Shown piece after piece: positions 33,010-63,279 of a stretch of DNA of 64,000 nucleotides (positions are counted from its first letter, which is position 1; every line of letters begins with the position of its first letter). The position numbers and the translations under genes were made by a program. The DNA comes from Diacronema lutheri (lineage: Eukaryota > Haptophyta > Pavlovophyceae > Pavlovales > Pavlovaceae): the NCBI GenBank assembly GCA_019448385.1, contig JAGTXO010000055.1, positions 158,646 through 222,645 on the forward strand, written 5' to 3'. A model generated the notes under the pieces. The model was given only the letters and a program-made list of their open reading frames with translations, ran no database searches and was not told the origin of the DNA.

Positions 33010-33449
33010 GTTTGTGCATCTGAGTCAAAACGTGAGCGCTCAACGTATAGATGGTCAAGCCAAATCCGATCAGGGGCACGATCGCGCCCCGAGTGCAGCG
33101 CGGGCCGTTCGGAAGGACGTCCTTGTGAGGGAGCTCTTCGCGTTTGGCGAGCGGGGGAGCACGACGCGCAGCGTTGCTGCGGCGGCGTGCGGGCGGCGAG
33201 CAGCGGTCGGGCTGCTCGCGACGAGGCCGGAGCAGACGGCGCCGTGGCCGCCGGCGCAGGTGACGCGCGCCGACGAGCCGTAGCGAGCGTCCGTGATCCG
33301 CACGGCGGTTGGAGCGGGCCGGCTGGTGCGGCGCGCTCGGCCACGGGTGGCGGCGTGCACGGTCGTGCCGCGCGCGGCACGCGTCGCCAGCCGCGCGCGA
33401 CCTGGGCAGAGCCCGCAAAGCGTCGACCGCTGCGCGGCTCGGCCGTGCG
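33010..33449. other. Non-coding interval downstream of the Fanzor stop codon
   Basis: This 440-base region separates the glycosyltransferase stop (33009) from the stop of the minus-strand Fanzor-terminated gene (33450). No convincing gene is seen. In TnpB and Fanzor loci the guide RNA is typically transcribed from the 3' end of the nuclease gene and the adjoining sequence, so this is the place to look for one. A short inverted repeat (GGGGC...GCCCC) lies at 33073-33090. Any guide-RNA role is inference. Confidence 0.4.
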
Positions 33450-36180
33450 TCAACGCCGGCCGCGCTTCGGCCCGCGCGCGCTGCCGCCGCCGGCACTGGC
33501 GCTGGCAGCTCCGCGGGCGGGGGTGCGGGCGCGAGAGCCGCCGCCGCCACCGCCGCCGCGCCCGCCGCCGTCGTCGCCACCGCCGTCGCCGCCGCCGCCT
33601 CCCCCGCCGTCATCGTCGTCGTCGCCGCCGCCGCCTCCGTCGCCGTCGCCGTCGCCGTCGCCCTCGCCGCCGCCGCCGTCGCCGCTGCCATCGTCGTCGT
33701 CGTCGTCGTCGCCCTCGTCGTCGCCCTCGTCGTCGCCGTCGCACTCGTCGTCGCAGTCGTCGCCCTCGCCGTGCACCATGCGCTCCTCACGCTCCCACAC
33801 CTCGCCGCGCGCCCACCAGGCGAGCACGAGGGCAAAGCGCTCAGGCGTCGACGTGGTGTCGCGCCCGGCCGCGTGCGCCGCCATGTCGTGCACGTCGTAG
33901 AAGATGTTGCGCGCGGCGTTGTAGTCGCGGTGCACGGGCTTCTTGCCGCCGTTGCACGCCGGGCAGATGACGAGCGCGTGCACCGTGCGCGTGCCGCCCT
34001 TTGCCACGGGCAGGCGCGGGTTCTGCGCGAGCTCCGCGCCGCAGCGCTGCAGCCTGCCGCCCTTGGCGAGCCGCGGCATCGAGCAGTGCATCGACGTGTA
34101 CGGCTCGGGCACGAAGACGGCCGCGACGCCGCGCCGCCGCAGCTCGCGCAGCAGCCCCACCTGGAAGGCGGGCGGCGCGCCCTTGGGCTGCGCGCCCTTG
34201 TGGTCGCGCAGCCACTTGCCCACGCACACGAGCAGCCGGTCGCGCGTCACGCCGTCGACACAGTGCGCCGCGATGAGCGCCTCGGCGACGCGCGCCGCGT
34301 TGGACCGCCCGCCGCTGTCGCGCCGCCAGCGCTCCTTCCGGCGCGCCGGCGCGTCGTACACGTGCTCGGCGGCGCGCTCGCGCACCCGCGCGCTCTCGCG
34401 GTGGAAGGCGATGTATTTGCCCGCGTCGAGCACCTTGGCGCTGTGCGCCTCGCCAAGCCGCGCCTCGTCCGCCTCCACGCTGAACTCCTCGCCGCGCCCG
34501 TCGGTGCGCACGCGCCGCCGCGCCGCGTTGGTCTTGGCCGTCTCGCGCGCAAAGCCCGCGGCGCGCGCGCGCGCGCGCTGCGTGAACTGCCGCCAGACGG
34601 CCGCCCGCCCGACGTGCGCAGAGTAGGTGGTGATGTTGCCCATGTTCGGGTCGGCCGCGACGACGACCGCCGCCTCGACGTCGATCGCCCGCCGCAGCTC
34701 GGAGCCGAGCGCGACGGCGATGCGCCCGTCCGGCCGGCGCCAGCGGTGCAGGACGCCCGAGCCGCCGGCCGGCGCCTGCGCCTTCGGCACGAGGACGGTC
34801 CCGACGGCGTGCACGGCGACGCCATCTGTCACCACCGACTTGACGGGCTGCCGGCCCGGGAGCGGCACGCGCGGCAGCGGCGCGAGGCCAACCCACGAGC
34901 GCCGCGCGTGCCACGGCAGATCGGCCGGCGGCCGCTCGCGCCCGGCGTAGTCGAAGACGCGGTTGGAGATGTCGAAGCGCGTCGCAAAGACCGCGTACCT
35001 GACGCGCACGTCCGACATCGGCGGGGTGTTGCCGTTTGTGCCTGTCCACTTGATCGGCTCGCCATCGTGGTCGCGCAGGTCCAGCGCCTTGAGCCGCGCG
35101 CGCAGCTCCTTGCGCTCGTCATCCGAAAGCGTCACCCAGATGGCGCTCGCGGCGAGGCGCACGTTGCGCGGCACCTGCGCGCAGCGCGCGGCGCGCGAGC
35201 GCGCGGGCGCGTGACCAACCTGGCCGCGGGGCGGCGCGCACGGCGGCGGCGCGCGCGCTTGGGCGCTCGGCGGCGGCAGCGGCAGCCACGCCTCGCGCGC
35301 ACATTGTGCGTGCGCAGCGGCGCCACATTGTACCGCGGCGGCCGTCCGGTCAGCTGCGTGTGGATGTGCGCGAGCCGGCAGAGCAGCGCCTGCCCCTCGG
35401 CCACGTGCTGCAGGGTGCGGATCTGCACGAGGAAGTAGCGCGTCGTGTGCCGGTCGTAGTTCCACCTTTTCGTGGGCGTGCACTTGTAGTCGATCTTGTG
35501 GAGGACCATGTCGGGCAGGTGGCGGTCGAGCGCGGCGGGGCAGCCGACGCGCGCGCCCTCCACGTCGCCGCGCAGCAGCCGCTCGCACAGCTCGCGCACG
35601 CGCGCGTTTCGCTGCATCTCGGGCAGCGCGACGAGCGCCTCGTCGCGCTCGACTGCCGCGCGGACGACGTCGCGGAGCAGCCCGTTCACGACGCGCGATG
35701 GGTGCATCAGGCACGCGGTGGACACCTGCGTCGCCTCCGCCTCGAGGATCTCCGTGAGGCCCACCGCGCAGACGGGCTGGACGCCCTCGGCCATCTCGCC
35801 GACGGCGCGCGCCGTCGCCGCCTTGGTCTGCGCGGCGGCTTGCTCGGCGGGCTTGCCTCGGGGCGCTGCACCGTACGTGCTCTCGTCCTTGTGCCAGCCG
35901 ATGGCCGAGAAGATCGCACGGACGGATCCCTTGTCCATCGTGGTCGACGTGTGCACGCTGGTCGACGGGCCGCCCGACGCCGCGCCGACGGCCTGCGCGC
36001 TCGCCACCGCAGCCTCGTCGCGCACCACCTTGTTGATGACGCGGTACGCCTGTGTCGTGAGCCTGTGCACGGCCGCCGCGATGCGCCGCAGCTCCTTCCG
36101 CGCACCGGGCTGCGCCGTCACCGCCTGCGGCCCCGCGTTGAGCGTCGAGCGCTTGACCACGAAGCCCGGGAGCACGCTGC
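33450..36180 (-). other. Fanzor (eukaryotic TnpB-like) nuclease domain of the giant gene
   Basis: The N-terminal part (36180-35303) has LTTQAYRVINKVV and RYNVAPLRT segments; intron 35302-35175 then joins to VPRNVRL, restoring a typical Fanzor junction. The split RuvC site is complete: Asp in VVVAADPNMG (codon 34650-34652, residue 5801), Glu in FVPEPYTSMHCS (34104-34106, residue 5983) and Asp in HRDYNAARNI (33924-33926, residue 6043). A zinc-ribbon-like Cys set (HCS, RCG, CPAC) sits between the last two. Fanzors are RNA-guided DNA endonucleases found in eukaryotic transposons and giant viruses. Retention of all key residues suggests activity. The extreme C terminus is a Gly/Asp-rich tail. Confidence 0.85.
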
Positions 36181-39100
36181 CGCGCGTGCGCGCCGTCGCG
36201 CCGCCGGCGGCGCGCGCGCTCGGCGCAGCGGGCTCGTCCACGCGCGCGCGCTCGACGCCGCGCGCGCGGGGAACGCTCGGCGCGCGCGCGCCCGCGGCGT
36301 CGCGCGCGCTCGCGGCGGCACCCGCCGCGGCGCGCTTGCCCGCGGCGCCCGACTCGCCGTGCGCGCGAAGCGGCGCCGACGCCAATGCCGACGCCGCGCC
36401 CGCGCCGCCGCTGCCGCTGCCCGATCCGCCCGCGCGCCGCTTCTGCTCGTCGCGCGTCTTGCGGAACTGGGCGACGAGGTCGCTGCTCACGTTGGCCTCA
36501 GGCTCCCACGTGTCGGCGCTCTCGTCGTAGCCCCGCCACCTGATCCGGAACTGGAACGTCACCTTCTTGCCCGCCTTGCGGCGCTCGTCGACGACCGCCT
36601 CGACCTCGTACGTGCGCGCCTCCTCGTCGACGCTCGCGCCCGCCGCGCTCGCGCCCGTGTCCGGCCACCCAGCGACCGTGCCGCCCAGCCTCTCGGCGGC
36701 CGCGCGCAGCTGCCGCTCGCGCTGGGCGGCCGCGGCGCCTCGCGCGACCAGCGCGGGCAGCATGCCCGCGCCGCCCGCGAGGCCGTGCGCGCCGACGCTG
36801 GCGGTCATCAGCGCGTCGAGGCACGCGAACGTTGCGAGCGCACACGCGCCATCGTCGCCGCCGCGCGGCTGCGAGCGCACGACGGGCGATGGCCGCGGCT
36901 CCCCCTCGGCCGCGAGCAGCGGCCAGATCGCACTGGCCAGCGCGACGGCATGCGCGCCGACCGCGACGGCCACGTCCGCGTCGAGCGGCGCAAAGTCGTA
37001 GCGCACGAGCGCGGCCGGGCGCGAGTCGTCCGTCGGCCGGTCGGCGACGAGCAGCCCGACCGGGCGCGGCGGCTCGCCGGACGGCGCGGCGACGGGCACG
37101 CAGAGGAGCACGACGAGCAGGCGCGGCGTGCCGCCGAGCAGCGCGCGCGCGGCATCCGCCCCGTCGGCTCCGCCGCGCGCGGCCGCGGCGAGCAGCTCGG
37201 CCGCGCGCGTCGGGCCCAGCGCCGTGCGCGCGTCCTTGCGCGCGCGTGCGCGGGCCGTGTACGCGGCGCAGGCGTCGTCGAGCACCGCCGCGCTGGGCGC
37301 GGTGCCAGTCGTCGCCCACGCGCGCAGCGCGTCGCGCACCCGCGTGACGATCGCCTGGTCGACCGCCGCCTCGCCGGCAGCGTGCGCCGGCGCGCACGCC
37401 GGCGGTGCGGCGGCAGGCGCGAGCGCGGGCGCGCCGTCGGCGCCGTCAACGCCGACGGCGCCGTCGGCGCGCCGCCACGCGAGCTTCGCCTCGATCTGCT
37501 GCCGGACGGCGTGGCAGTGCCGGTCGATGCCGCGCGCGTCGTCGAGCGCGGCCAGCGCGTCCTCAGCGGCGGGACGGCCGCTCGCGTCCGCGACGGCCTG
37601 CAGGCAGAGCAGCGCGGCCGCACGCGCGTTGCACGCGCTCTGCGGCTCGGGCGCGAGCGCGAGCTCGAGCTCGAGCGGCGACGCGCCTCGCGCCGCGGCG
37701 ATCGCGTCCATCAGCACGTCCAACCGCTGCACCAGCGCCCTGTGCGCGTCGCGCGGCGCGCCCGTCGACGGCGCGCGCGAGCGCGTCGCCAGGAGCCCGA
37801 GCGCGCGCGCCGGCGCGCCCGCCGGCGTGTGCAGCACGAGCAGCGCCGCGCCCGCCAAGCTCGCGTTGCGCGTGACGAGCGCGAAGATGCGCGTCGCCTC
37901 GTGCGCGCCCACCGACGCCCAGATCGCAGCGCGATCGGCGTCCGTCTGCGCGTCGCACAGGTCGCGCACGTCGTCCGGCGCGAGCAGCGCGCCGCCGCCG
38001 GCGGAGCGCGCGACGATCGCCCGCGCCTCCGCCACGAAGACGGCCTGCGGCAGGTCGGCGTGGCGCGCGTCGACGATGGCGCGCGTCGCGTGCACGCCGA
38101 GCTCCACGCCGCGGTAGAAGGCGCGCGCGTTGGCCGCGCGCGCGTGCGCCGGCCGTCCGTCCGCGTTGCGCCTCGCGCGCGCCTGCTTGCTCGTGCGCGC
38201 GAGGCCGTCGCGTGGCGGTGGCGGCAGCGTGGCGAGGAAGCGCGCGGCGGGCGGCGGCGCGCGCACGCCGCGCTGCCGCCGTGCGATGGCCGCGAGCCGC
38301 CGGCCCGCCGCGCTGCCGCCCGCGCCGACGTGCTGCCAGCGGTTGAGCGCCGCCGGTGGCGGCGGCGGCGGCGGCGCGGCGGCGGGCGGCGGCGCGACGG
38401 CGGGCGGCGGCGCGGCGGCGGGCGGCGGCGCGGCGGTGGGCGGCGGCGCGGCGGCGGGCGGCAGCGGCGGCGGCGCGGCGGCGACGGCAGCACCAGTCGG
38501 CTTGTCCGCCCACGCACCCGAGACGCTGTCCCAGGCCTTGCCCGGTGGCGCGCGCCCACGCGGCCGCTGTTGGCGGGCTCGAGCGGCGGGGGGCGGGCGG
38601 CCGGCGCGCCAGTCGAAGACAGGTGCAACCGTGGCGGCAGGCGCCGAGTGCAGCGCGTCGGTCACAGAGCGCGTGGTGCGCGCGGCGACCGTGGCGCGCA
38701 TGGCGGGCGGGCGGTGAGCAGCGCCCGCCGGCGCGCCGGCGGGCGCGGCAGCCGGCGCGCCGGCGGGCGCGGCCGCCTCGAGCCCGGCGGAGGCGCCGCG
38801 CTTGCGCTTGCGCGTGCCGCCGCGCGTGCGCCTGCGCGCGCGCCCGCCGCGCGCCCGTGCGGCCTGCGCGTCGCCAGCCGCGTCGCCGGCCGCGTCGCCG
38901 CGCCGCACGTAGACGATCGCGAACGCCTCCTCGCCGGTCCCGTCGACGCCGCCGCGCGCGCGGCGTAGGACCGACCGCCACTGCAGCCGCCGCGCGCGGC
39001 CGGGCTCGCACGCAAACCAGCGCCCACCGCGCCTGACGACGGCCACAAAGTCGTCGTCGCGCCGCCCGCGCCGGCGCGTGCGCAGCAGCACGCACTGCAC

Positions 39101-42100
39101 GTCGAGCCAGCCCTCGTGCCAGTCGGCCGTGCTGGGGGCGACGCGAATCGACTGCGGGAGCTCGACGCCAAAGCCGGCGAGGCGCACGATGTGCGCGACG
39201 ATGACGCTCGAAATGGCGGGGGCGCTCGACGGGTCGTCCGCTGCAGCGAGCACCGCCTCGCCCCAGTGCTCACGCGTGACGCAATCCGCGTCCTCGACGT
39301 GCACGTGCGCCACGCTCGCGCCGAGCTGGTGCAGCAACGCGCAGATGTCGGCGTCGACCGTCCTCTCCTCCTCGGCCGCCTCGGCCGTGCCGCGGGCGGC
39401 GGCGTCGCCCGCCGGCTGCCCGAGGTACGCGATCGCCCGCTCGACGGCCGCGCGCTCCGCACGCGCTGCGCTGGCGATCGCCGCATTGCCGACGGGCGCG
39501 CGCAGCGCCGCGATCGCGTCTTGCAACGCCGTCGCGTCGCCCGTCGCCGCCGCCGCCGTCACCGCCGCCGCGCTCGCGGTGCCGTGCGCGACGGCGTGCA
39601 GCGCGGCGGCGCGCGCGGCGGGGATGCGCCCGTCCAGCGCGAGCACGAGCGGCGGCCCGGCCGGCGTCTGCTGCCGCCGGTGCCGCCGGCTCGCAGCCGG
39701 GTGGTCGGTGCGCGCGCGCTCGAGCCGCGCGCGCCGCTCGACGACGCGCGCCCAGAAGGCCTGCACCCTCGGCTGCGCGAATGCAAGCCAGCCGGCGCCG
39801 CGCGTCACGACGTGCACGACGATCCGGTCCTCGTGCCTGAGGTACTGCACGTAGAGCGCTTTGCTCACGCCGAGGACGTGCATGCCGAGCTGCAGCTGAT
39901 CGCGGTGCGGCTGCGGCGGCCCGTCCTCGTGCGCCGTGGCGCCCGCCTTGGTGAGCGTCTTCACCTCGACGAGGACCTGCTCGTTGTTTTCGGGGAGGAT
40001 GGCGAGCCCGTCCGGCGAGAAGGCGAACGGCGCGCTCTTGTCGTGCGGGTCCGCACGCACCATCGGCAGGTTGCACACGACGGTGATGCCGTACGCGGCC
40101 GCCAGCTTGCGCAGCGCGACGGCCTCGCCGAGGATGCCCGCGGTCGTCGCCTTGGTCCGCACCTCGCGCCGCCGCCGGTGCACGTACTCGTCGGTGAGCG
40201 TCTCGTGCGCGACGCCGGCGTTGTCGTTCACGACGTCGCCAACCTTGCTGCCCGTGACCTCCTCCCATCGCTCGTCGTGCCAGCGCGGGCTGCGCTGCGC
40301 GGGCGCGCCCGCGCCGACGGCGTCGAGCACGCGGCGCAGCGCTGTGCCGTCGGGCGCAGCAGGCACGCGCGCGCGGTCCTGGGCCTCGCGAGCGTCGAGG
40401 ACGCGGCCCGTAGTGGAATCTTGGGGTAGGTCGAGCTTGCTCGCCTCGCCGTAGCGGCTCTCCAGCTGGCGCGGTGCGTCGGCAGGGCCGCCGTCCGTGC
40501 GCGCACCCGACGCGCCCGCCAGTGCACGCGGCGCAGCGTCCGAGGCGCCCGCCGCGCCCGCGCCGCCGCCAATCGCGCCAGCGCACGCGCGCGCCGCGAC
40601 CTGCGGACGGCCAGCCGCAGGGACCTCGTCCGCTCGGCCGGCCGCTGCGTCGGCCGTCCGCTTGGCCACCTCGCGCACGTCTCCGAGCGCGAGCGTGGCT
40701 GGCGCCGTCGAGCTCCCGTGGTCTTTGTCCCAACATTTGAGCAGCCCGCCAAGGAAGGGCGTGCCCGTCGGGCGGTCCTCGGGCACCTCCGCCAGGATCG
40801 CGTCGACGCGCAGCGCGGCCGCCACATCGCAAAACGCGCGCGCGGCGCGCGCCATCCGCTCGGCGCGCGCGCCGCCGTCGTCCGCCGCGCGGCGGATGGC
40901 GTGGCTCACGTGCGCGACGCGGAGCGAGACGACGGCGTGCGCCGGCGCGTCGGCGCCCGTGCCGAGCGTGTGCCGCCGGATGGCCAGCTGCCCATCGCCC
41001 ATGCGCGGCGGCAGCGACGCGCACGCCGCGACGGTCGTCGTGCCGGCCGCGCTGTCGCACAGCCAGCTCGCCTCGCCGCCGCCCGCAAACTCAAAGGTCG
41101 CGAAGCCCTCGCGGCCGAAAAGCGCGACGAAGTGGTCGAGCACCGCCTTGTTGATCGCGCGCGCCGCCGGCCGCGTCGATGCGCCGCGGGCAGCGCCACC
41201 CGCCGCGCCGCGCGCATCGCTGCACGTCGCAGGGCAGGTGCAGCCGGACGCGCGCACGCCGTCCGACCGCGTCCGCGGCAGCTCGAGCTCGCGCACCTTG
41301 GGGCAGAACCAGAGCGGGTTGGACGCCTCGAGGCACAGCACGACGAGCCGCCCGTCCGTGCCGGCCAGCGCGCGCGCGTCGCGCAGCAGCTCGACGGCGA
41401 GCTCGGACGTCGCCGCGTGCACCGCCGGCTCGCCCGTCGCGCGGTCGGGCGGGAAGAGGCCACCGCCGACGAGCGGGCTGGGGCAGCGGCCGAGCATCAC
41501 GAGCAGCGGCGGCGGCGGCGTCTGCGGCGCCTGCTGCCCGACCGCAGCCGCCGTCAGCCCGGCCAGGTCGGAGCTCGTGCGGAGGGCCTTGAGCGCGACG
41601 CGCGAGCCGGTGCCCGCCTGCTCGGAAAACGTGGCGAGCATGGCGCACGTGCTCGCCCTCGCGCCGCACTGCCAGCTGACGCGCGCGAGGAGGCCTTCCA
41701 GCGTGTCGTTTTCGCGCGGCCGCGTGACCGCGTCGAGCGCCGCCGGGCCGAGCTGGAGGCTGCCGGGCGTGACGCACAGCACCGCCTCGTGGTAGGCGCG
41801 CAGCAGCTCCCTCGGCAGCTGCTCGGCGGGCGTCGCCGCCTGCCCGCCCACCCACCGTGCACCGTGGCCGCCGTCGCCCGCGCCCGCGAGCCGCACCGCC
41901 GGCCCGCCCGTGATCGCCGAGGTCGGCGGCGTGCCGAGCGCGTCGACGAGCGCGCGCACGGGCGCGACACGCCTGCGCGCAGCGTCCGCGCCGACGGCGA
42001 GCGCGGCGATCTGAGCGCCCTCCCATGCGCGCTCCCTCGCGTCGTCCCGCGCGGCCGCCGGCGCGGCGCCCGGCCGCGCGCCGGGCGGCACCGCGCACGC

Positions 42101-43991
42101 CGCCGCGACGACCTCCGCGCGCGCGCCGGCGGCGTCGGGCGCGTGCAGCTGCGCGATCGCGCCAAAGAGCGCGGCGGCCGAGCGGTAGCGGCCGTGCGCC
42201 GCGACGAGCGCGTAGAGCACGCGCAGCGCGGCCACGCCCGCCTGGTCGGGCGCGTCGTCAGCGATTTGCTCGACCTCCCACGTGCGCGTGGGCGGCGGGC
42301 TGCCGTCGGCCGGGTCCGGACGCAGCGCCCACGCGCGCTCGACGATCGCGTTGAACACGTCGCGCGCGGCGCCCTCGTCAAACTCGGCGGCGCCCGCCGC
42401 GTGCGCGCACCACCCGTGCACGCGCGACGTGGGCGCGTCCACGGCGCGCTGCACGACGAGCACCGCCGGCCGGTCGACGCAGCCGAGGCTCACCGCCGCG
42501 TGCTTGCCCTCGAGCAGCGCCGCCGCCGCAGCCTCGACCAAGGCGTCACCAGGCGCGTCGCCGACGACGACGGCACAGCCGTCGCCGTACTCGGCCTGCA
42601 TCGCGGCGACGCACGACGCGACAAAGTCGCCGCCCGCGGCCGCCGCGTGTCGCGCCGCCAGCATCCGGCGCGCGATGGCAAGCCAGACGTACTCGGCCGG
42701 CGCGCGCGCGGCGCGCGCGCGAGGCGCGCCGGCCGCGCCGCGTGCGCCCGCGCGTGCGCCTCCAGCGGCCGCAACGGCCGAGGCGGCTGGAGCGGCGGTG
42801 AGCGTGCGCCGCGCGCGCTTCGCCGGCCGCGCGATGGGCGATGCACCCGCCATCGCACCGCCCGCAGCAGCCGGTGCGGCCGCCACAGCGCCCGCCGCAA
42901 CGCCACTCGTCACGACGCCCGTGGCGGGCGGCGCGGCGTCGGACGCGGCCGCCTCGACGGGCGTCGCGCAACTACCGCCAGCGGTCGCGGACGCGCCCGG
43001 CGACGCGTCGGCGAGGAGGTGGCGCAGCACGCCGCGCGCGAGCGCGACTCGCACGGCGAGCGTCAGCGCGCGCAGGCGGTCGGAAGGCGAGGCGTCGCGC
43101 TCGGCGTCGGCGGACGTGGCGGCAGCAGGCGGGGCGGCGGGCGGCACGGCGGCGGACTGGGCGGCCGCCGGCGCAACCTCGTCGGCCTTGGCCAGCCAGA
43201 CGAGCCCGGCGACTGCGAGCACGACGCTGTACGCGCCGACATCGTCACCCGCAACGCGCGCCAGCCGGGCGTGGGCGTCGGCCTCGGACACGGCGACGTG
43301 GAAGAGCACGTCGTCGCGGGCAGCTTGCTCGGCAAACTGACGCAGCTGCTTGGCCATCGTCACGCCGGCGACGCACGCCTCGCCCGCCTCTGCCTCGACC
43401 TGCTCGTCCTGGCCGATGGCGGACGCGCCGGCCTCGGCGCCAGCGTCGAGTGTCCGGCGGCGCTCGAGGGCAAAGCCACGCACACAGACGCTCTGGAGGC
43501 CGCCGAGCGCGCCCGCCTTCTCGTGCAGCGCGCACGACAGCTCGACCACCGAGTCCACGCGCCTCGCGGCGGCGCCCCCCCGCTCGCCGCGCGTGGCCGC
43601 GCGCACGACGAATACCGTGAATTGCGCGCGCTTCGCCGCGCGCGCCGACGCGCACGCGTGCTTCAGGAGCCGGCAAAGCGCGGGCCTTTGCGCCGCTGCG
43701 CCCCGCGTGCACAGCAGCAGTTGGCCGCGCTCGTCGCCCAGCTCCTGCTCGACGGCGGCCTCGAGCGCGTCGTCCGTCAAATCGCCGTGCTCCGTCGAGG
43801 CGAGCGCGCGCGCAGCCGCGAGCGCCAGCTCGCCTGCGCCCGCGCGCCGCCGGCGGCGCGCACCGGCGGGCGCGTGCGGCGCCGACGCGTGTGACGACGC
43901 CGCCGCGTCCGCGCGCGCACACGCGGCGCGCAACGCCTCACGCGCCGAGGCGGCCGCGCGCGCCCTGGGCGCGAGCTTCAAGAACGTGCGC

Positions 43992-44068
<77 letters not shown>

Positions 44069-47000
44069 GCCGGCCGGCGGCGGCGGTGGCGGCGGTGGCG
44101 GCGCGGCCACGGCGGCGGCAGCAGCGGCGGCGGCGGCGGTGGCGGCGGCGGCGGCGCCCAGCGCGGGCGGCGGCGGCGTGGCGGCGGCGGTGGCGGCGGC
44201 GGTGACGCCAGCGGCGGCCTTGGCGCCGCGCGTCTGCGGCGGCGTTTCGGCGCCATCGGGGCTGCCCCCGCCGCGCACCGCGCTCGTGACCGCGCAGACG
44301 CCGCCCGGCGCACGATCGCTGGCCGCGCCGGTCAGCGCGACGCGGAGGCGCTCGCCGACAGCGTACATGTCCGCCACGCTGAACGTGCGCGGCGCGGACG
44401 AGCAGCCCGCCGCGGCGAGCGCGTCGTTGAGCGCGCCCACTATCGCGAGGCCGCACGTCGCGCCACGCTGCGCCGCCTCGTTGAGCAGCAGCGCGCGGCG
44501 CACGCGCGAAATGTCGAGACCCGCCGCGTGCAGCGTGGCAGTTATCGCCTTGGCGAGCATGAGCGCCTGCCTGCAGGGCGACGCGAGCGTGTCGACGAGC
44601 ACCGCGTCGTAGCGATGCTCGCCCGCGCGCGCGACGCGCACAAGGCGCAACGCGGTGAAATGGCCGGAGGCGAGCTGCGCGCCGTCGTCACCGCCCGCGC
44701 CGCCGCGCTCGTCCGACGGGCTCCACACGCCGATGACAGCCTGCGTTGTCGCCTCGCTGCGCAGGCGGTGCAGCAGCGCGGCGCGCTCGGCGTCGTCCTG
44801 AAACACCGCGGGTTGCGCGGCGAGCGGCACGTGGCAGACATGCCCGCCGCCGGCCTGCCCGTGCACGCGCAGCACGACCTCGCAGCACGCGTCGACGGTT
44901 GAGGCGAGCATGTCGCCGCTGGCGATGCGCTCCACCTCTGCCTGCGGGAGGCCGGCGCTCGCGGCGGCGGCGGCCAGCCGGCGCGCAGCCGCGTCGCCCG
45001 CCCACGCAAGCAGCGCCGAGTTGGCGGGTTGGAGGGGAAGCTCAAGGGCGGCTGGTTCGGTGGCGGTAGCCTCGTTGGCAACGGGCACGTTGGCGGTGCG
45101 CGCGTTGGCGGCGGGCGCGGCGGCGATGGCTGGTGGGGCGGAAGACGCGCCCGCGGCGGCGGGCGCGGACGCGGCAGCGGCAGCGGCTAGTGGGGCGGGG
45201 AAAACGCCGTCGGTGGCAGGCGCGGAGGCGAATGCAGGAGCAACTAGTGGGGCGGGAAAATCGGCGGCAGGCGCGAAGGCGGATGCAGCAGCGGCTAGTG
45301 CGGCGGGGAAAACACCGTCGGCGGCAGGCGCGAAGGCGGATGCAGGAGCGCCCAGCGGGGCGCAGAAAACACCGTCGGCGGCAGGCGCGAAGGCGACAGC
45401 AGCAGCGGCCAGTGGAGCGGAGGCGCAGGGCCACGCGCGCGCCAGCCGTGCAAGCCCAAGCCGCGCGCGAGCGACGCACGCGCCGATGGCCGAGGCGGCG
45501 GCGCAGGCCACGACGTGGCCTGGCACCGGTGTGGCCAGCCGCTCGCGGGTGTGCACGTCGAGCCGCGCCCCACGCCAAGAGCGGCGGCGCGCTGAACGGA
45601 GGCGCGCGACCCCGATCGATCCGCCCGCGCACGCGCGCGCCGGCTCAGTGTGGCCAACGCGCGCCGCTATGCAAGGCGCGCGCGCGATAACGGCGGCTGT
45701 CGGCCGTGGCGTGCGCGTGGCGGCGCCGCGGCGACGGGCGCGGCACACGAGCCGCTCGGGCGCGCCGCCGCCGCGCGGCACGATGTCGAGCAGCACGGTC
45801 ACGCCGCGCGCGCGCGCGACCGCCGTGCACGCGAGCCGCACGGGCAGCGGCGGCCCGTCCGGGCGCGCGAGCGCCGCCACCTCGGCGTCGGTGAGGCTGT
45901 GCAGCTCGCGGCGCGCGCGCGCGAACGCGGCGATGTCCGCGCGCAGCTCCGCGTCCGTGCCGAGCGCGGCACGCGCGTGCACGGGGAGCGACGCGCGCAG
46001 CGCGTGGAGCACGCCGCCGCGCGCGCCGCGCGGCGCCGGCGCGCGCTCGCGCTCAGCGCGCGCGGCGCGCGTGAGCTCGCGCACCGCGCGCGCGAGATTG
46101 CGCCGCGCGGCCGCGACGGGAGGGCTAGGTGCGCGCGCGCGCCGGTTGTAGCGCGGCCGCGCCGAGTCGAGGGGCGGCGGACGCGGTGCGTACGCCGCGG
46201 CGCGGCCCGCGCGCCAAAAGGCCGGCGGCGGGCGCAGCTCCGTCGCGTCGACCGCGGCCGCGAGCGCGCCGAGCGCGGCGTCGCTGTCGCCCGCCGCGTC
46301 GGCCGCGTCGACGAGCACGAAGAGCGCGCCGAGCGCGCGCGACGCGGCCGCCTGCGCGGCGGTGGGGCGGGCGCAGGCAGCGACGCATGCGGCCGCCATG
46401 CCGCGCGCCGCGGCGAACGCCGGTGACGTGACGGCCGCGCCGATGGCAACGGCGGCGGCGGCGACGGTGGAGGCGGCAGCGCCGGCGATGGAGGTGGCAG
46501 CGGCGGCGGCGCTTGCCATCGCGCGGCGCGCGAGACGCGAGGCGCCACCGACCGCCGCCGCCGCAGCGCGCGCTGCGCGCGCGCCGGTGGCGCGCATCGT
46601 CGCCGCGCCAGGCGCCGCCGCGCCGACGCCGCCGGCGCCCGCGCCGTCGCCGCTCTCGGCCGTGCAGGGCTCCGATGGCGAACCCGGCGTGCGCTGGCGC
46701 GTGATGCGCGCGCCGAGGCGCGCGCTCCGCGCCGCGCGGCCGGCGACGTCGAGGAAGCGCCGTGCGCGCGCCGCGCGCAGGCCACGCGCGCGCGGCGGCG
46801 CACCGACAGGCGCCGAGCGCCGCGGCGCGCACGCCGGCGCGTCGCTGTCGGGTTGCGCAGCGCGCGCGCGGGAACTCGGCGCGGCGTGTGCGGGCGGCGG
46901 GCGCGCGCCCGCGCGGCGCAGAGGCGCGAGGCGCCGGCCGCAGACGAGGCGTGTGCGCAACCAGGACGGCGAGGGCCGCAGGGCGCCGTCGACGTCGCGC

Positions 47001-50000
47001 ATCGGCGGGCCGCGAGCCCGCCGCGCAGCCGTGCGGCGCGCGCGAGGCGCTCGGCGGCGCGCGCGCCGCACGGCGCGCGCGGCGGCGCGCACGCCAGCGA
47101 CGGCTGCGGCCACGCCGCGCGCCAACACGGCCGCGGCGTGCGCCATCGCACCGAGCACGGCGCGTGGCGCGCCGAGCAAGCGCAGCAAGCGCGACGCCGT
47201 CGCGCGCGCCGGCGCACCGTGTGCAGGGGCCTCGCCAGCGCCAGCACCGACGCCGCCATCGCCGCAGCCGCAGGTGGCGTCGCCGCCGCCGCAGGCGTCG
47301 CGACGGACGCCGCCGCCGCCGAAACAACCGCCGCACACGTCGCCGCCGACGTTGCCACCCCAGCCGCCGTTGCGTGCGCAGGTGGCTGCGGCGCGTGCGT
47401 GCGGGAGGCGTGCCGTGCGGCGCGCATCACACGGGCTGCGCGACGCGAGCGACGCCGCCGGGGGCCCCGCTGCGCCAGGCGCGCCGTGCGCGCCAGCCTC
47501 GCCGGCCTCGCCGGCGCGCGGTCGCGCGCTCGCCTCGACGTGGCCGCCTCCGCCGCCATCGCCGCCGTCGAACCGGGCGGCGGAGGGCTGCCGCTCGAAC
47601 CGCTCGTCGGCGTCGGCCGCCACCGCCGCCTCGCGCTCCGCCGCCGCGGCGGCCGCACGGCGCGCGTGGCGGAGCGCGCGGCCGCCGTCCGCTGCGCGGC
47701 GTGGCGGCGCGGGCGCGGGCTTCGGCGCGCGCGGCCCCTCGGCGCGCTCGCGGAGCACGGCGAGCGGCGTGCCCGTGGCGACGCTCGTGCAGACGCGCCG
47801 CAAGGCGGCGCTTACGCACGCGTGGACGACGCGCGCCGTCCGCTTGTCGGCGGCGCGCGCGGCGCGGCGCGCGGCCTTGGCGGCGGCCTTTTTGGCGCGC
47901 CTCTGCTCCGCCTGCTCCGACAGCGCGCGCGCCTGGCGCTCGGCTGCGAGCGCGTCCTCGGGCGAAACGGTCGGCCTCGGCGGCCGCGCGCGCGCGCTGC
48001 GACGCTGCGCGCTGCGGCGGTCGGACGGCGGCTGCCGCGGCGGCGAGGACGGCGAGCGCGAGCTCGGCGTGGGCGACCAATCGCCGCTGACGGTTGCGAG
48101 CGGCGCAAACGGGTTGTCGTCCCCGCGACCCGCGGCGTGCGACAGTGCACGCGGCGTCGGGCGCCGGCCGACCGCTGGCGGGCCCCACTCGGACGGCGGC
48201 TCCGAGGGCGAGCGCGCCGTCGGCGCCGCGCGTTGCGCGGCCGGCGGCGCCTCCCGGTCCAGCGCCGCCTGCTCTCTCGCCGCGGCCTGCTCGTCACCCT
48301 CCGGCACGCCACGCGGCGCGAGCACCGCGGTGGCGCAGCGCGTCGCGTTGAGCAACGCCGCCTCCATCTGCCGCACGCTGGCCTTGGCGCACGCCACACC
48401 CTGTCTCGCCCGGCGCAGCGCCTCGTGCGCGCGGCGCACATCCGCGTCGGCATCTTCGCGCATGCCAAAGTGCGCCTGTTGCAGCCGCAGGTCCGCAGGG
48501 CGCCCCTGCGCGCGAGGGGCACGGGCGCGGCGGCGCGCAGGTGACGGAGCTGGCGCGCCGTTCTGCGCTGCGCGCACGCCAATCGACGGGCGCGCGCGCG
48601 GCGGGGCGCGCGCGCGCGCGCGCGCGCGCGCTGCCTACCCAGCCGCCGGCCGGCTCGCGCGAGCGCGCCAGCTGCTCCGCCGCCTCGGCGTCGAGCACGC
48701 GCTGCTGCGCCTCCTCCTCGCCCAGTGCAGCGAGGTGCAGCCGGCGGGCTGCCTTGCGGCAGTTGCCCTCCGCCTTGCCCACGGCCTTGCGCGCCGCGTC
48801 GACGGGGTCGTCGTTGGCTCTGGCGCGCCTGCGCTTGCCCTTGTCGGCGGGCGGCGGCTCGGCGCGCTGCAGCGTGCCGAGCGCGTCGTCGGCTCCGCGC
48901 GCGGCCGCCCGCGGGCGGCGGGCCCCAAAAAGCGCACCGGTCGCCGTGCGCGCCGCGCAAGCAACGACCAGCGCTGACATGCCGGCGAAGACCGCACCGC
49001 CCAGCGCCACGGTTGCCACGATGCGCAGCGTCCCGTGCGCAAGCTGCGCTGCCTCCGCCGCTTTGGCGGCCTCGCGCGCGCGCGCATCGGCGGCTCTCAT
49101 CTCGTGCAGCAGCCCGGCCGCGCCGCTCGCGCCGTCGCGGCCGCGCGCGAGCTCGCACAGCACCGCCGCCGCGCGCCGCGTGGGCTCGCGCGCGAGCAGC
49201 TGCGCGCCGCCGTCGGGGCGCAGCTTCTCAACGAACTCGACAAACGTCGCGTCGCGCCAGAGGGACATGCGGAAGGCCCTGTGCACCGCCCCCTCCTGCT
49301 CGCGCATCCGCCGTGCCGCCCGCCTGCCGTCGCGCGCGTGCGCGTGCGCGGCCGCGTCGACTCCCGCGACGCCGCGCTGCGCGTCGCGCGCGGCCGACGA
49401 CGGCGCCGCCGCGCTGCCCGCCAAGGGCGCCGCAGCGGCGACGCGCGCGTGCGGAGCGACGGGATCGCCGGCGGCCGGCGGCTCGGCGCGCTGCGGCGTG
49501 CCGTTTGCTCCGCGCGCGGCCGTCCCGGGGGAGATGGCCGCGATGGCGCCGCCAGCCGCGCCGCGCGCCAGCCACGCGCATAGGCTGCCGACGAGCTCGC
49601 CGAGACCCCCGACGGTCGCCGCGGCGGCGAGTGCGCCGGGCTTGCCGGCCGACAGCGGCTCGCGAGCGTCGTCGTCGCAGCCGCCGGCACCCGTCTTGGC
49701 GAGTGCGTCGCGCTCGCCCTCGACGCCCGCCACGACCGCCGCCCCTCCGTCGTCCGCCGCGCCGGCCGCGCGCGCGGCCGGGCGCAGAGGAGGCGTGCCG
49801 GTGCAGCCGTCGCCGCTCGTCTTCGCCGTTTCCTCCACTTTGGTCACTTCGTCGCCACCTGCGCCATCTCCGACGCCGGGGCCCTTGGTCACGCTTGCCG
49901 CCATGCGCGCCGTGCCCGCCGGCCAGCCCGCCGACTGCTCGAGCGCGGCGGCGAGCGGCGCGACGCGCGTCGACTCGGGCGCGCTCTCGTCATCGGGCTC

Positions 50001-52313
50001 GAGCGCGTTGTGCAGGCGCGCGAGCGCGCGCTCGACGGCCGCGGCGCCACTGCCGGGGGCGCGGCTCGCCGCGCGCACCGCGCGCCGCCAGGCCGGCGCG
50101 AACATGAGCGCCGGCTCGAGCGCCGCGAGCGCGCGCGCCTCGCGCGCGTCGCTCGCGCCGAGGCGCGGCGGCACGCGCGCGGCTCCGCGCGGCGCGGTGC
50201 CTCGGAAGCGTGGGCTCAGCGTGTAGGCGAGGTGCTGCGGCACGCCGCGCGCCTCCGCGCGCGCGCGTCCGTCCTCGACCTCGCGCCGCGCCTTCGCGAT
50301 CGCCGGCGTGGCGCGCGCGAGCCAGTCGGGGTCGGCGGGCAGGTGGATCACGACGAGAATCGGCGCCCAGTCCAGCCGCGGGTTCTTGTGACGGTCGGGC
50401 ACGACCCACACGAGCAGCACCGTGCCCTCCGCGCCGCACGCCGCCTCGTAGATCCTGGGCTGCGAGCGCCAATCGGGCCTGACGCGCAGCGCCCGCGCGT
50501 GGTCGATGGCGGCGGCGCGGTCGCCATTGAAGTGAACCGTCGTCACCTCGCCGATGACGGACCGGCCGGACCGCCAGCAGAACACCGCGTCCGCCGACCC
50601 GCCGGCGATGGCCGCGAGCGATTCGGGCGCGGCGAGCCGCGGCAAGCCCTCGAAGGCGGCAAAGTCCTCGTGCGCATTGTACACGCCGCCCCAGCCGTCG
50701 TGCGCGTACGCGCGCGCGGCCGCTCGTACCGCGCGCGGCTGGTTCTCCACGCCCGACGTCATGTGCCATGTCGTCCCCGCGAAGCCGGGCTCGCCCAGCT
50801 CGGCCCGCACGACGGTAACGTACCCTGCGCCCTGCGTCGGGGCGGCGAGGTGGTGCATGCCCGCGCCGGTCACGCCCTCCGTGCGCTGCCGCGTGACGAT
50901 CGTGCCCGTCGCGTGCGCGAAAAGCGTGTCGACCACGGCGGGCGCGCGCCCGCTGTTCGCCCGTAGCCGCGCCCTGCCCGCTTTTAGCTGCTCGGGGTCC
51001 TTGGCGTCGTACACGCGCGCGTCCGCGTCGCCCTCATCAGGCGCAGTGTAGACGCAGCGGCGTTCGAGCGGCGCCGAGCCACCGCCGTCCGCCGCCGCCG
51101 GCGAGGTTGGCGCCGCGCCCGCCGCCACCGCGCTCGTCGCCGCCGTGCCCGTCGCCACCGCCGCAGCCGCCGCGCCCGCGGGGTCGTCGTCCCCGTCCTC
51201 CGCGCCCTCCCCGTCGTCAGCGGTGGTGGCGTCGCCATCGTCCCCGTCGCCCTCGCCCCCGCCGAGGCTGCTGAATGGTCGGGGCCCCCACGCCGAGGCG
51301 GCGCGCCGCTGCGGCGCACGCGGCGGTGGCGCTCGCGACGGCGGCCTTGGCGCCGCCGCGCCGCGCGGCCTGGCCGCCGTCGACAGCGCGCGGCCTGCAG
51401 CGCCCGTGAGCGCGTCGAGCGCGGCCGTGCGTGCGATGCGGTCGTCGGGCGCGCGCAGCGCCGCCTCGACGGCCTGCAGCAGCCCGTCGGGCGCGGATCC
51501 GCCGACACTGGCATCGCACGCCTCGGCGAGCCGCGCGGCCTCGGCGAGCCGCGCGGCCTCGCGGGTGAACGGGCCGAAGCGCCTGGCGCGGTCGCCGAGC
51601 AGAGCGCCGATGGCGGCGCGGAGCGTGCGCGCGCGGGTCTCCTCGTACGCGGCCGTCGTGAGGCGCGCGAGGCGCGCGTCCAAAGCCTTCTTGATGTCGA
51701 CAAGGACACTCGCGCGGCGGCCGTAGAGCGTCGATGCGCTCGCCACGACCTCGGCCGCGACTGTTGCCGCGGCGAAGCAACACGCGGCCCCACTCTGCGG
51801 GGGCGCCTTGAAGGCATCGATGGGCGGCGCTGTTCTGCCGATGCGCTGCGCAAGCTTCTTGATGAGCACGCCGGCCGCCGTGGCGTACGCCGATTCGCCG
51901 TTGCCCAAGGTGCGCGAATCGGCGAGCAGGGCGAGCGCGGCGCCGGGCGGCGCGCCGCGCTGCGCGGGCGGCGCGAGGAGCAGGTACGCCGCCGTCCAGT
52001 GCACGAGGCCGCTGGACGCGCGGAGGCAGAGCGGTAGCACGACCACGAGCACCTGCCCAAACCGGTCCGCATCCGCGCATGCTTTGCGCAGGTTGCGCAG
52101 CGCCACCTTGAGCGCATGCTGCGAGCACCCCGTGTCGCCCACCCTAACCCTGCTCGTGCCGAAATCCGCGTAACGCAGCAGGGCGATGAGGCAAGTGGAT
52201 GGGACCACGTGGGGGTGGGTATCTCCCGGCGACAGAATGGTGCTGAGGGCCAGCGAGAAACTGTCCGAGCCGCCCCGCCCGCCGGGCAAAGCGTCCTTCA
52301 CGGAGTCCTCCAT
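33450..52313 (-). CDS. Giant multidomain protein (about 6,200 residues) ending in a Fanzor nuclease
   Basis: Three open exons join in phase: 52313-48639, 48505-35303 and 35174-33450, across GT-AG introns of 133 and 128 bp. The middle exon alone is open for 13.2 kb. In order: a C48 (Ulp1)-like protease module (H105, D132, Q173, C178/C179); an acidic and alanine-rich region; two hydrophobic segments; a coiled coil interrupted by intron 1; Arg/Ala-rich stretches; a second C48-like module (about 2507-2576); a YqaJ-type nuclease (about 3960-4134); low-complexity Pro/Ala linkers; a chromodomain (about 5187-5243); and a Fanzor domain (about 5337-6070) followed by an acidic Gly/Asp tail. The protease modules suggest a self-processed polyprotein. 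Separate genes within the block cannot be excluded. Composition follows the GC-rich host. Confidence 0.6.
36450..36620 (-). other. Chromodomain within the giant gene
   Basis: The segment reads YEVEAVVDERRK, then a strand with FQFRIRWRGYDESADTWEPEANV and a closing helix DLVAQFRKTRD. This is the full chromodomain plan, with aromatic residues at the methyl-lysine cage positions (Y of YEVE, W of RWRGY, W of DTWEP). In retrotransposon integrases, chromodomains steer insertion to marked chromatin. Here it lies about 100 residues ahead of the Fanzor domain, so targeting of the nuclease to chromatin is a plausible inference. Confidence 0.88.
38350..38510 (-). repeat. Pro/Ala coding repeat in giant gene
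   Basis: A near-perfect series of AAAPPP-type units (GCN and CCN codons) encodes an extended proline-alanine linker between the nuclease part and the later modules of the giant protein. Confidence 0.8.
39780..40300 (-). other. YqaJ / lambda-exonuclease-like PD-(D/E)XK nuclease domain
   Basis: The domain opens with SPRWHDERWEEVTGSKVGD, as in YqaJ-type viral recombinases, and has the catalytic D in FSPDGLAIL (about 40005-40020), the E-V-K motif in VLVEVKTLTKAG (about 39955-39975) and the family Q-x-x-Q-like helix RDQLQLGMHVLG (about 39880-39905). These nucleases resect double-stranded DNA 5' to 3' and work with single-strand annealing proteins in phage and large DNA viruses. It lies in the middle of the giant open frame. 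Confidence 0.85.
43990..44200 (-). repeat. (GCN)n poly-alanine coding repeat in giant gene
   Basis: A long trinucleotide repeat, almost pure GGC/GCG on the plus strand at 43995-44060, encodes more than 20 consecutive alanines, with adjoining Ala/Pro stretches. It keeps the frame open and is a likely site of length variation. Confidence 0.85.
44430..44670 (-). other. C48 (Ulp1)-like cysteine protease module, internal
   Basis: The order of catalytic residues fits the Ulp1/adenain fold: His in SGHFTALRLV (residue about 2507), Asp in AVLVDTLASP (about 2530), Gln in AAQRGATCG (about 2571) and Cys in the same motif (about 2576). Spacing is compact but acceptable. Such proteases process polyproteins or deSUMOylate host proteins in several DNA transposons and viruses. 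Confidence 0.5.
45135..45425 (-). repeat. Coding minisatellite in giant gene
   Basis: A unit of roughly 60-70 bases encoding variants of FAPAADGVFPAPLAAAASA is repeated about four to five times with substitutions, all in frame. Confidence 0.75.
51730..52020 (-). other. C48 (Ulp1)-like cysteine protease module, N-terminal
   Basis: Residues VLVVVLPLCL and LVHWTAAYLLL (His 105), ALALLADSRT (Asp 132) and APPQSGAACCFAAA (Gln 173, Cys 178/179) follow the His-Asp-Gln-Cys order of Ulp1-like peptidases. The module is followed by a helical region and an acidic linker. Its position at the N terminus of the giant protein suggests a role in release of downstream parts. Assignment is by motif only. Confidence 0.5.
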
Positions 52314-52832
52314 CTGCAGACTGTGGGCACGTCAGTGTCCGGATGGCGGCCCGGATGATACTTGGGAGAATTTACATGATGCCCTAGAGAATGCCCCGCT
52401 CTCCCACAACCAGGACCCGCCAGCGCGCCGAGCCTACTCGTTTGCCCGCGCCGCCTCTCTTTGCGCGCCCGAGCGCGGCCTCCGAGCGCGGCCAACGTCC
52501 TCCGGGGGCGTGCATCGTGGCTGCTCGGAGGGGCTGCGACGCGGCGAAAGCTCGCTGCGCGGCCGCAACGTGAGCGCGCGCGCGCGGCCGCGCGCCGGCC
52601 TGCGCTGCTCTGCACGGCCGCGCGCCGGCCTGCGCAGCCTCGTCGCGCAGCGTGAGCGCGAGCGCGCGCGAGGCGAGCTCGGCGGATGGGTGCGCGGCGG
52701 CGTTGGCGGCGGGTGCGGCGGCAGGCTGGGCGGCGGGTTTGGACGGAGAGTGTCGGGGAAGAACGGGGCGCATCCTGGCTGGGAGTTGGACGGCGCCCAC
52801 CACGCGCTGGCGGATCCTGGTTGCCACCACCA

Positions 52833-52851
52833 CCCCCCCCCCCCCCCCCCC
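52833..52851 (+). repeat. poly-C tract
   Basis: An uninterrupted C run in the unassigned region upstream of the giant gene. Confidence 0.8.
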
Positions 52852-54218
52852 GGAGACGAGGACCAGGGGCATGGCCGACTCGCTGCGCCGCACAGCGCGC
52901 GGCGCGCGGCATGCTGCGCGACCTCAAGCACATCCAGCCGCGCTCCGCCCACGCAACGCGCGCAATGCCGTGTTGCACTGCAGGTGTGCACGTGCGGCTC
53001 TCACGCGCACTGTGTTGCACGAACGGCATCACGCCACCGAGCTGCGTCCGGACCACGCGCCGCGCGCAGGCGACCACACAGGGGCGCGCCGCGCCGCGCG
53101 TGCGCGCCCTCGCAACCGTTGCAGCACGCTCTGCCTTGCACTGCGCCGAGCCGCCGCGCGCTGTGCGCGTGCATGCAGGGCGCACGCGTGCGACGAAGCG
53201 CGCGCGCGGCGAGGCGCGCGGGCGGCTCGCTGCGCGGGCGGCAACGCGCCCAGCTGCGCCCAGGCCAGGCGCGCGCCCGCGAGTGCCACCGGGACGCACT
53301 GCCCCCGCCGGGGTCGCCGCGCGCTCTGTGTGTGCGCTCGCGCGCTGCGAGCGCGGCGGAACGTTCGTGCATGGCGCGAAGAGCGCGGCACCCGAAGACG
53401 GCTGCCCCGAGCCCGCGCCGGGTGGCAGCGAGCGGCGGCACCTCCTCGGCGAGCCCGCCCCGCGCCTTCCCCTCCACGTGGCGTTTTGAGGCAGACGGAC
53501 ACGCGCCCACACTGCGACTGGGCACGCTGCTCGAGGCAGACACGCACCCAACGCGCGCGCACCACGCGCCCGCGTCGGCGGGCCGGTGTGAACGAGCGAG
53601 AGCTCGGTGTCGCCAACGGGGGCACGGGCGCGACTTCGGTCCGCCTCTCGACGGACGCAGGCGACGCTGCCGGGAACTTCCCCGACGCCTGCACATCCAG
53701 GGCTTCGAGGTACAGAGCTGGGCAACAGTGCGCTCGTCACCGATGAGGCGGCCAAGCTCGCTATCCTTGCTGCCCTCGGCTCCACCAAACAGCCGGGCGA
53801 CCCAACGGTTCGTGATCGCCTGGCCGCCAGGTGCGAACCGCGCCCGTGCAAGCGCTTCACCCGCATTCTCCGCCCCGCTGCGGACGTCCGCCTGCCGGCC
53901 GCGAACACGGCCGGTGCGCGTTGCCGCCTGGCCCAACACGAAAACCCGCCCGCCCCCGAGGCCGCAGGTCCTACCTGCCCAAGCGCAGCCCAACGGCACG
54001 CAGACAGCCCGCCTTGGCAACCGACTCGTGCGCGAGCGCTCCGCCCTCCACAAGAGCCTGCCCCACGCCACCGCCGACGCGGAGCCAGCGGAGCCGACGC
54101 CCCTCCGCGACGCTCGCGCCGCAAGGCGCAAGGGCCCCGGCGAGACGGCGTCAACCAAGCCCGCCGCTGGCACAGCGCCGGCACCCGGAGCCCACCCCAA
54201 GCCCCCGCGCACGCCTCG

Positions 54219-54245
54219 CCCCCCCCCCCCCCCCCCCCCCCCCCC
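54219..54245 (+). repeat. poly-C tract
   Basis: An uninterrupted run of 27 C, followed about 30 bases later by GCCAG, a possible 3' splice site on the plus strand. Confidence 0.8.
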
Positions 54246-54648
54246 GATCGGCGGACCGATTGCGTTTTGGTGCGCCAGGCTCAATGCGCCATCGCAGTGG
54301 CGGGCCCGCAGACGCAGACGCTGACATGCCCAACGCTGGGCACTGAGGCCGCAGGCCGGCCCTCCTGGACCTGGCGGGCGAGCTGCCCGCGCAGCGGCCA
54401 CGCGAGCCTCGCACTGACCGTGGCGGTCGCTGCCACCGTGATAGCTGCGGGTGCGGCGGCCTTGGCCCCAACCCCATCATCCGTCTTCATCCCCGCCCTG
54501 CTCGCGCTCGCGGCCTACGTCGGCAATCCCTGCACCGGGATCCGCCCCGCGAAGTCCACACAAGACTTATCCGTGCTGCACGCCAGCCGCGCGCGCCGAC
54601 GCGCGCCGCTCCCACACGCTCACCTCCGTTTCCGCGGGCGGCCCAACG

Positions 54649-54675
54649 CCCCCCCCCCCCCCCCCCCCCCCCCCC
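54649..54675 (+). repeat. poly-C tract
   Basis: An uninterrupted run of 27 C, followed at once by GGCAG, a possible 3' splice site on the plus strand. Confidence 0.8.
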
Positions 54676-55042
54676 GGCAGGCGGCCATCGAGCCGCATTA
54701 GCACACCCGCCCGGGGCCTCCCGCCGCACCCGCAGCGGCTCGGCGCCTTGAATCCTCCCGTCCCCCGGGGTGAGGCCTTCAACCCGGGCCCAGCGCGCTC
54801 CGACTGCCTCACGCGCGCCAGCGCCAACCTCGGCGGCATGGTAGACCCCGAGCGAAAAGCCGCACTTCTCGCCGTCCTCGTCAGGCGCAAGTACGTTATC
54901 CTGCTCCTACTGCCGACGCGGCTCCCGCGCGCGCGGACTACTACGCCGGGCAGATCGCCGCAGACGCACGTGAGTGCACACGTGCGGACAAGGCGCACAC
55001 GCTCGACGTCCAGTTAGCGCACGTGCACGTGCGCGCCACTGG

Positions 55043-55230
55043 TCACATTTGAGCGTCCGTGCTCGCCCACAGCGTCGCCATCCACAAGATGCGCGCTGGA
55101 GCCATCCAAGCAGGGCTCTGCCTGCTCGGCTTCCGCAAGGCAATTTGGGCCGCGGACAGCGGACAGCGGACGGCGTGCGCGTGCGAGGTGCGAAAGGAGG
55201 AAGAAGGTAGGGAGAGTTGTGTGTGTGTGT

Positions 55231-55266
<36 letters not shown>

Positions 55267-61031: not shown

Positions 61032-61113
61032 GGCGCGCACGACGTCGCCCAGCCAGAGCAGCCCGGGGCGGGGCGAGTCCGGCTGCGCGGAGGTCCGGCT
61101 CGAGCGGGCGGGC

Positions 61114-63246: not shown

Positions 63247-63279
<33 letters not shown>

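Follow-up and report, generated by a model that had tools for sequence, protein, structure and literature searches.

In the Fanzor1 and Fanzor2 transposons, a RuvC-like nuclease is encoded near one end of the element by a gene of its own, for example in a 2.1-kb single-frame locus (PMC3627910, PMC10432273), and carries the family motif D-X(125,275)-[TS][TS]XX-C4-X(5,50)-RD (PMC3627910). Helitrons have been found to carry Fanzor1, and IS607-type elements Fanzor2; Chlamydomonas Helitron2 carries a Fanzor as cargo, has a subterminal hairpin and includes many insertions without a target duplication, and Helitrons follow the end rule of 5'-TC and CTRR-3' (PMC3627910). IS607 elements with TnpB or Fanzor2 have neither terminal inverted repeats nor a target duplication (PMC6188088), and Polintons and Terminons are large elements with many accessory domains (PMC6431247). 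Why Fanzors are retained in mobile elements has yet to be explained.

Here we analysed a window, that is, a whole stretch of 64,000 nucleotides (C79:158646-222645), of the marine alga Diacronema lutheri and searched its genome as 43,492,796 bases in 103 contigs. The assembly of strain NIVA-4/92 has been described as 43,502,671 bp in 103 contigs, the longest of 3.042 Mb, with 73.25% GC and 22.9% repeats, of which those annotated are mostly long terminal repeats and LINEs; the main text of that paper is without any word starting with "transpos" (PMC8379373). No publication naming both Fanzor and Diacronema, or both Fanzor and YqaJ, was found in PubMed Central, which covers few preprints and subscription papers. 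Fanzor and chromodomain are co-mentioned in the literature and, in such text as is accessible, named apart from each other; Fanzor is also co-mentioned with words beginning with haptophyt-. In the literature searched, including the accessible text of PMC10711439, we found no description of an element of about 31 kb such as the one reported here.

The first-pass annotation of this window had singled out one predicted gene of about 6,200 codons that ends in a Fanzor nuclease. It overlooked that this gene is the main gene, or cargo, of a larger and recently amplified mobile element, present at 150 or more places, and it likewise overlooked a UCH-like segment and a gene for a PIF1 helicase. The two ends of the element differ from each other, and one of them adjoins a TATA-like target. 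Inside lie a giant multi-domain reading stretch that ends in the Fanzor and, separate from it, PIF1-helicase and UCH-like coding pieces.

33045..63993, no strand assigned: whole mobile element, about 31 kb, delimited by shared ends and differing flanks

At least 150 genomic places encode an identical 116-aa Fanzor core (100% identity; 354 candidates), and a 457-aa Fanzor query recovered at least 93 places at 98-100% (93 of 422 candidates scored). Queries from the YqaJ region and from exon 1 gave at least 150 genomic matches each, at 98-100% and 93-100%, respectively, and the N-terminal part of PIF1 gave 149, of which 118 cover the full query at 99% or more and seven stand at 94-97%, the rest being partial or members of a diverged group at 81-93%. 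The exon-2 frame reaches at least 4,400 codons in 88 of the 150 matches listed and is shorter in the other 62, and thus many copies of the element are broken or trimmed. The exon-3 start variant carried by an annotated D. lutheri protein, KFE25_006464 (P0014), was found at 95% identity or more in 51 of 150 matches listed, with the type present in the window at 86%, and the element thus comprises subfamilies. Sixteen end pairs could be read among the matches listed (40 per end): eight are 31.0-31.1 kb apart, one 30.5 kb, three 26.3-26.5 kb, three 21.5-21.6 kb and one 12.6 kb. The Fanzor exon, PIF1 and the YqaJ region are all still present in the 12.6-kb derivative, and three 151-base samples from it map near 37.0, 40.0 and 61.3 kb of the window; inside a 21.6-kb variant, L079 (C5:270800-270950) is sequence without a match to the window. 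With 96 full-length copies the element would make up 6.8% of the assembly, and with 150 it would make up 10.7%, some copies being shorter. Outside the element, window positions 15925-16224 and 19990-20289 form a direct repeat of 98% identity, 4,065 bases apart, which together with tandem arrays at equal offset probably reflects a duplication of about 4 kb.

The limits of the element were read from its copies.

33045..33065, minus strand: low end, GTATAGATGGTCAAGCC.., with GTATAG in 29 of 30 distinct low flanks
63940..63993, plus strand: high end, ..GGACCGCGCC, joined to GTATATAG at 96 genomic places

At the low end, the first base common to the copies is 33045. Twenty stretches were fetched there: similarity ends at 33040-33045 in all 13 with flanking DNA, four are contigs with a terminus at 33045-33046, a further contig starts nine bases deeper inside the element, and the last two samples are a contig that begins at 33235 and a stretch consisting of the exon only. 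The single low flank lacking GTATAG has GTTAG. The high end was seen in 13 of 18 copies looked at, with differing flanks after it; of those in which it was not reached, C30 has its end just outside the fetched stretch and the copy in C71 appears shorter. Nine of 14 distinct high flanks start with GTATATAG, the window has GTATATT up to the end of the contig, and the remaining ones read GATGTAAA, TTAATACA, CTATATAG and CTCTATAG; the backward control pattern for the 96 genome-wide junctions gave none. Contigs C1, C12, C43, C71 and C79 start or stop at an element end, and because the assembly breaks at such ends, copy number and flanks are probably under-counted. Terminal inverted repeats were not found, the first 300 bases of the low end having no inverted match at the high end, and other copies have a perfect palindrome of 18 nt at a distance of 39 nt inward from the high end.

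A simple 5-bp target duplication was rejected as a general rule, as GTATA is present at both ends in nine of 14 two-ended copies, the window included, and absent in five. GTATA may represent such a duplication, but since the low end is fixed and the high flank variable, we favour GTATA as a core carried by the element. Two insertions at different places, L061 and L063, have a common repeat of about 150 bp directly after GTATATAG, which is also found near two other copies; it was considered as an empty site, and none of its copies at other places proved to be a clean one. When the element is read in the orientation of its Fanzor gene, CTATATAC immediately precedes it, and CTATAC forms its last bases at the other end. 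Adjacent motifs in TnpB and Fanzor elements are placed likewise at the element border.

The giant gene occupies the low half of the element and is read from three exons.

33450..52313, minus strand: giant gene from first ATG to stop, based on open exons, GC3 and simulation
48639..52313, minus strand: exon 1, 1225 codons, based on open frame and GC by codon position
48506..48638, minus strand: intron 1, 133 bp, GT-AG, with a (GC)n run of variable length
35303..48505, minus strand: exon 2, 4401 codons, open frame, also at least 4400 aa in 88 of 150 listed copies
35175..35302, minus strand: intron 2, 128 bp, GT-AG
33450..35174, minus strand: exon 3, 574 codons and stop, with the Fanzor catalytic half and an acidic/glycine tail

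The coordinates, the sizes and GT-AG borders of both introns, and the matching phases given in the first-pass annotation were all reproduced, and the three open exons together give 6,206 codons uninterrupted by any stop, or 6,200 when counted from the first ATG at 52313. A chance open frame in GC-rich DNA can be ruled out by simulation and by the GC3 signal: the longest open run in the exon-2 region is 4,500 codons, against a median of 705 and a maximum of 1,355 in 100 dinucleotide Markov simulations, while exons 1, 2 and 3 have GC values of 0.79/0.64/0.90, 0.82/0.66/0.91 and 0.78/0.57/0.95, respectively, at codon positions 1/2/3, and the two introns are flat, with 0.80-0.91 at every position. 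In the exon-2 region, the remaining five frames contain 10, 18, 19, 34 and 47 stops, and the sliding GC profile switches frame at the places of the introns. In most of 150 listed matches the exon-1 frame is 1345 aa long, and BLASTP (E<=0.01) detected no internal repeats in the giant protein.

Intron 2 is present in an annotated gene model, as KFE25_006464 is spliced exactly at the predicted junction of exons 2 and 3, reading ...RPPRYNVAPLRTHN and then VPRNVRLTANAIW..., that is, NVAPLRTHN joined to VPRNVRL; the annotation was made with BRAKER2 and RNA-seq (PMC8379373). This model, on C69, fuses a SAM-domain gene to part of the element, comprising the last stretch of exon 2 and the first of exon 3, possibly through exon capture or as an annotation artefact. 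In C99, where a copy stands at the contig end, the exon-3 start lies within an open frame of 4,820 aa which, judged by length, would be about what is expected of exon 2 reading through into exon 3.

The support for intron 1 is indirect: its borders are identical in the window and nine sampled copies. A length of 133 bp is shared by the window, one ordinary copy and three copies with 93-97% exon-1 identity, and the interval measures 129 or 135 bp in five copies, chosen because an exon-1 or exon-2 query showed a read-through frame, in which the frame runs on through 5.3-6.1 thousand codons; the exon-1 and exon-2 queries returned the same frame length in four of these five, and the fifth was among the exon-1 matches only. 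The lengths differ in the number of GC units, and a 2-base repeat of varying length inside the interval fits an intron. Instead of an intron, there may be a frameshift at the (GC)n run, which would likewise join exons 1 and 2, and if the interval is not an intron, the five read-through copies still form one chain. Two or three separate genes that are never spliced together, with exon 1 ending at 48294 and exon 2 starting at its own ATG near 48463, seem unlikely: the exon-1 frame indeed meets no stop before 48294, and an in-frame ATG occurs early in exon 2, but the extension of exon 1 would overlap coding exon 2 in another frame, the 133-bp interval is non-coding in composition and keeps its GT-AG borders in diverged copies, and the frame is continuous in the five sampled copies with 129 or 135 bp. 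We keep to a single predicted gene across the three exons as the likely reading; of the original claim, the one giant coding stretch and intron 2 stand, whereas a separate start of exon 2 is possible.

The predicted product combines several recognisable domains.

33903..34142, minus strand: Fanzor/TnpB TNB zinc-finger region, catalytic E near 34106 and RD near 33926
36458..36610, minus strand: chromodomain, Pfam E 7.2e-12 / 4.6e-13
39872..40282, minus strand: YqaJ / lambda-exonuclease-like domain, from Pfam, TIGR03033 and motifs
44453..44662, minus strand: C48(Ulp1)-like motif 2 (H..D..Q..C), motif only
51780..52001, minus strand: C48(Ulp1)-like motif 1 (H..D..Q..C), motif only

A C-terminal Fanzor with its catalytic residues, predicted from sequence, is supported, and the claim that it is complete held: D5801 (RuvC-I, near 34652), E5983, TS 5986-5987, the zinc-finger cysteines in HC..C..CPAC and RD 6042-6043 are all kept, the 184 residues between D5801 and TS lie within the published family motif, and the Pfam Cas12f1-like TNB profile matches exon 3 above its cut-off (E 1.7e-6, 28.5 bits vs 26.3). 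The match to NCBIfam guided_TnpB is 13.9 of 100, PHROGs (8 frames) gave a TnpB-type transposase at E 0.089, and a PDB sequence search with the Fanzor exon found no match. Relatives comprise one match at 98% and four metagenomic sequences at 39-47% identity. The first D is kept in all four of the latter; only P0008 and P0009 extend to the E and RD, and both keep them, the second zinc-finger pair being less regular in P0009. All four begin where exon 3 begins, and their contigs, 1.5-2.8 kb in length, are too short to show domain order. AlphaFold models of the Fanzor exon and the PIF1 N-terminus were too poor for use (mean pLDDT 46 and 33).

The chromodomain and the exonuclease-like domain lie within one open exon, exon 2. 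For the chromodomain, the earlier claim is borne out by Pfam scores of 45.5 and 49.3 bits against a cut-off of 25.1, and a query of the chromodomain with the exon-2 tail matched only the annotated D. lutheri fragment P0014. The YqaJ assignment is partly sustained: the region keeps SPRWHDER and SPDGLAILPENNEQVLVEVK (motifs SPxW..R and SPDG..VEVK), but the profile scores remain below the curated cut-offs, with Pfam at E 0.03 for the whole exon and 4e-4 for a cut piece (21.1 bits against 22) and the NCBIfam lambda-exonuclease TIGR03033 at E 3e-5. A PDB sequence search with the YqaJ piece gave chance-level matches only and no lambda-exonuclease. The protease-like modules, in turn, are less firm than claimed, as they come down to two H..D..Q..C motifs with which no profile agrees: no protease family was found in the three exons (Pfam, E<=1) or in ten cut pieces (E<=10). 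Under block shuffles, one or more such motifs arose in 6 of 500 and two in 0 of 500, with a pattern that had been written after the sequence was seen.

Beyond the giant gene, the high half of the element carries further coding pieces and a large palindrome.

56196..56462, minus strand: UCH (ubiquitin C-terminal hydrolase)-like segment, Pfam E 4e-8
58227..60556, minus strand: PIF1 helicase gene, pieces in several frames, Pfam E 4e-14, 8e-25 and 1e-13
61113 or 61128..61999, no strand assigned: palindrome with 350-nt arms, 99% complementary, with CCTACAC repeats

The PIF1 gene has a conserved N-terminal part of unassigned fold, and the only PHROGs match below E 0.001 was that of its frame to a Dda-like helicase. 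The CCTACAC repeats in the palindrome look telomere-like, and a genome-wide count of the 23-mer gave 609 occurrences, many of them grouped by fours. We scanned 43 frames or pieces, some overlapping, against Pfam and eight frames against PHROGs, all unspliced and of about 120 codons or more, and among these recognised no transposase, integrase, reverse transcriptase, recombinase, Rep, polymerase or capsid family.

These scans bear on what kind of element this is. A DNA transposon of Helitron or IS607 type with captured domains, in which the Fanzor is a passenger and an ordinary recombinase that is split by introns or supplied in trans does all of the moving, is a serious contender that we place somewhat below even odds. 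The element has no inverted repeats and no consistent duplication, as in both groups, Fanzor1 and Fanzor2 are known from them, and a PIF1 helicase is present, a type of helicase that Helitrons encode. However, neither a Rep nor a serine or tyrosine recombinase appeared in the 43 Pfam frames and pieces, none of seven H-x-H matches in the six frames of the element was convincing by eye, and the element ends do not match 5'-TC...CTRR-3'. Large algal viruses often carry an exonuclease, PIF1 and peptidases, and such gene types might point to an endogenous remnant of a DNA virus. We hold this origin to be highly improbable, as capsid, packaging ATPase and DNA polymerase were absent from the scanned frames, four scans of IMG/VR returned no relatives of three parts of the element, and the copies are uniform and have exact ends in common.

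The cut-resect-recombine mobility proposed in the first-pass annotation can reasonably be inferred, and we give roughly even chances to a model in which RNA-guided cutting, exonuclease resection and PIF1-assisted copying maintain the element, with the giant protein coming from one transcript. Here we speculate that the giant protein would be made from one spliced transcript and that its Fanzor, guided by RNA from the low end of the element, would use as its adjacent motif the TATAC-type sequence that flanks the opposite end, and cut alleles without the element. The linked lambda-type exonuclease might then resect the break, the PIF1 helicase would aid long copy synthesis from the sister or homologue, and the chromodomain might tether the giant protein to chromatin bearing marks. 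For the element to enter a fresh TATA-like site in the first place, a recombinase would be needed, perhaps an uncharacterised part of the giant protein or one acting in trans. The sharp common ends with unrelated flanks and the presence of PIF1 in the same element as the Fanzor argue for this maintenance model, as do the end pairs at 31.0-31.1 kb, the many closely matching Fanzor and PIF1 sequences, the 96 junctions to GTATATAG, the catalytic residues kept in the metagenomic relatives, the location of exonuclease-like domain and chromodomain in one exon and the domains kept by the 12.6-kb derivative; against it, no recombinase was recognised in the frames scanned, the YqaJ scores are below cut-off, GTATA is not at both ends in five of 14 two-ended copies, and the low end folds no better than chance would allow (z -0.56; 66 of 200 shuffles as good) and, like the rest of the window, has no match in Rfam, the element copies being too alike for covariation. 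A stronger version, in which the element does without an ordinary transposase and the Fanzor/exonuclease/chromodomain protein together with PIF1 copies the 31 kb into TATA-like sites by RNA-guided cutting, resection and break-induced copying, appears improbable to us.

Since a single reading stretch links the Fanzor with a chromatin reader and a resection-type nuclease, and the element has recently spread to well over a hundred places, whether it takes part in copying by recombination can be tested directly in an alga that grows in culture. In addition, the element represents a natural example of an RNA-guided cutter, its cutting being predicted, that is linked to repair functions.

Compared with known systems, the element resembles Polintons and Terminons in size class and in its many accessory domains, but no PolB, integrase, ATPase or reverse transcriptase was found here in the frames scanned and there are no inverted repeats. 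With IS607 elements it has in common the missing terminal inverted repeats and, in that it shows no consistent one, the missing target duplication, whereas it is far larger and showed no serine recombinase in the frames scanned. It is like Chlamydomonas Helitron2 in its lack of a consistent target duplication, its subterminal hairpin and its Fanzor cargo, and differs in its other end sequences, in a helicase that is not joined to Rep, no Rep/HUH having been found in the frames scanned, and in its 31 kb. Finally, as in the Fanzor1 and Fanzor2 transposons, a RuvC-like nuclease with the family motif lies near one end of the element; there it is a gene of its own, whereas here the Fanzor forms the C-terminus of a stretch of about 6,200 codons, and the element, 31 kb long, also encodes a helicase, an exonuclease-like domain and a chromodomain.
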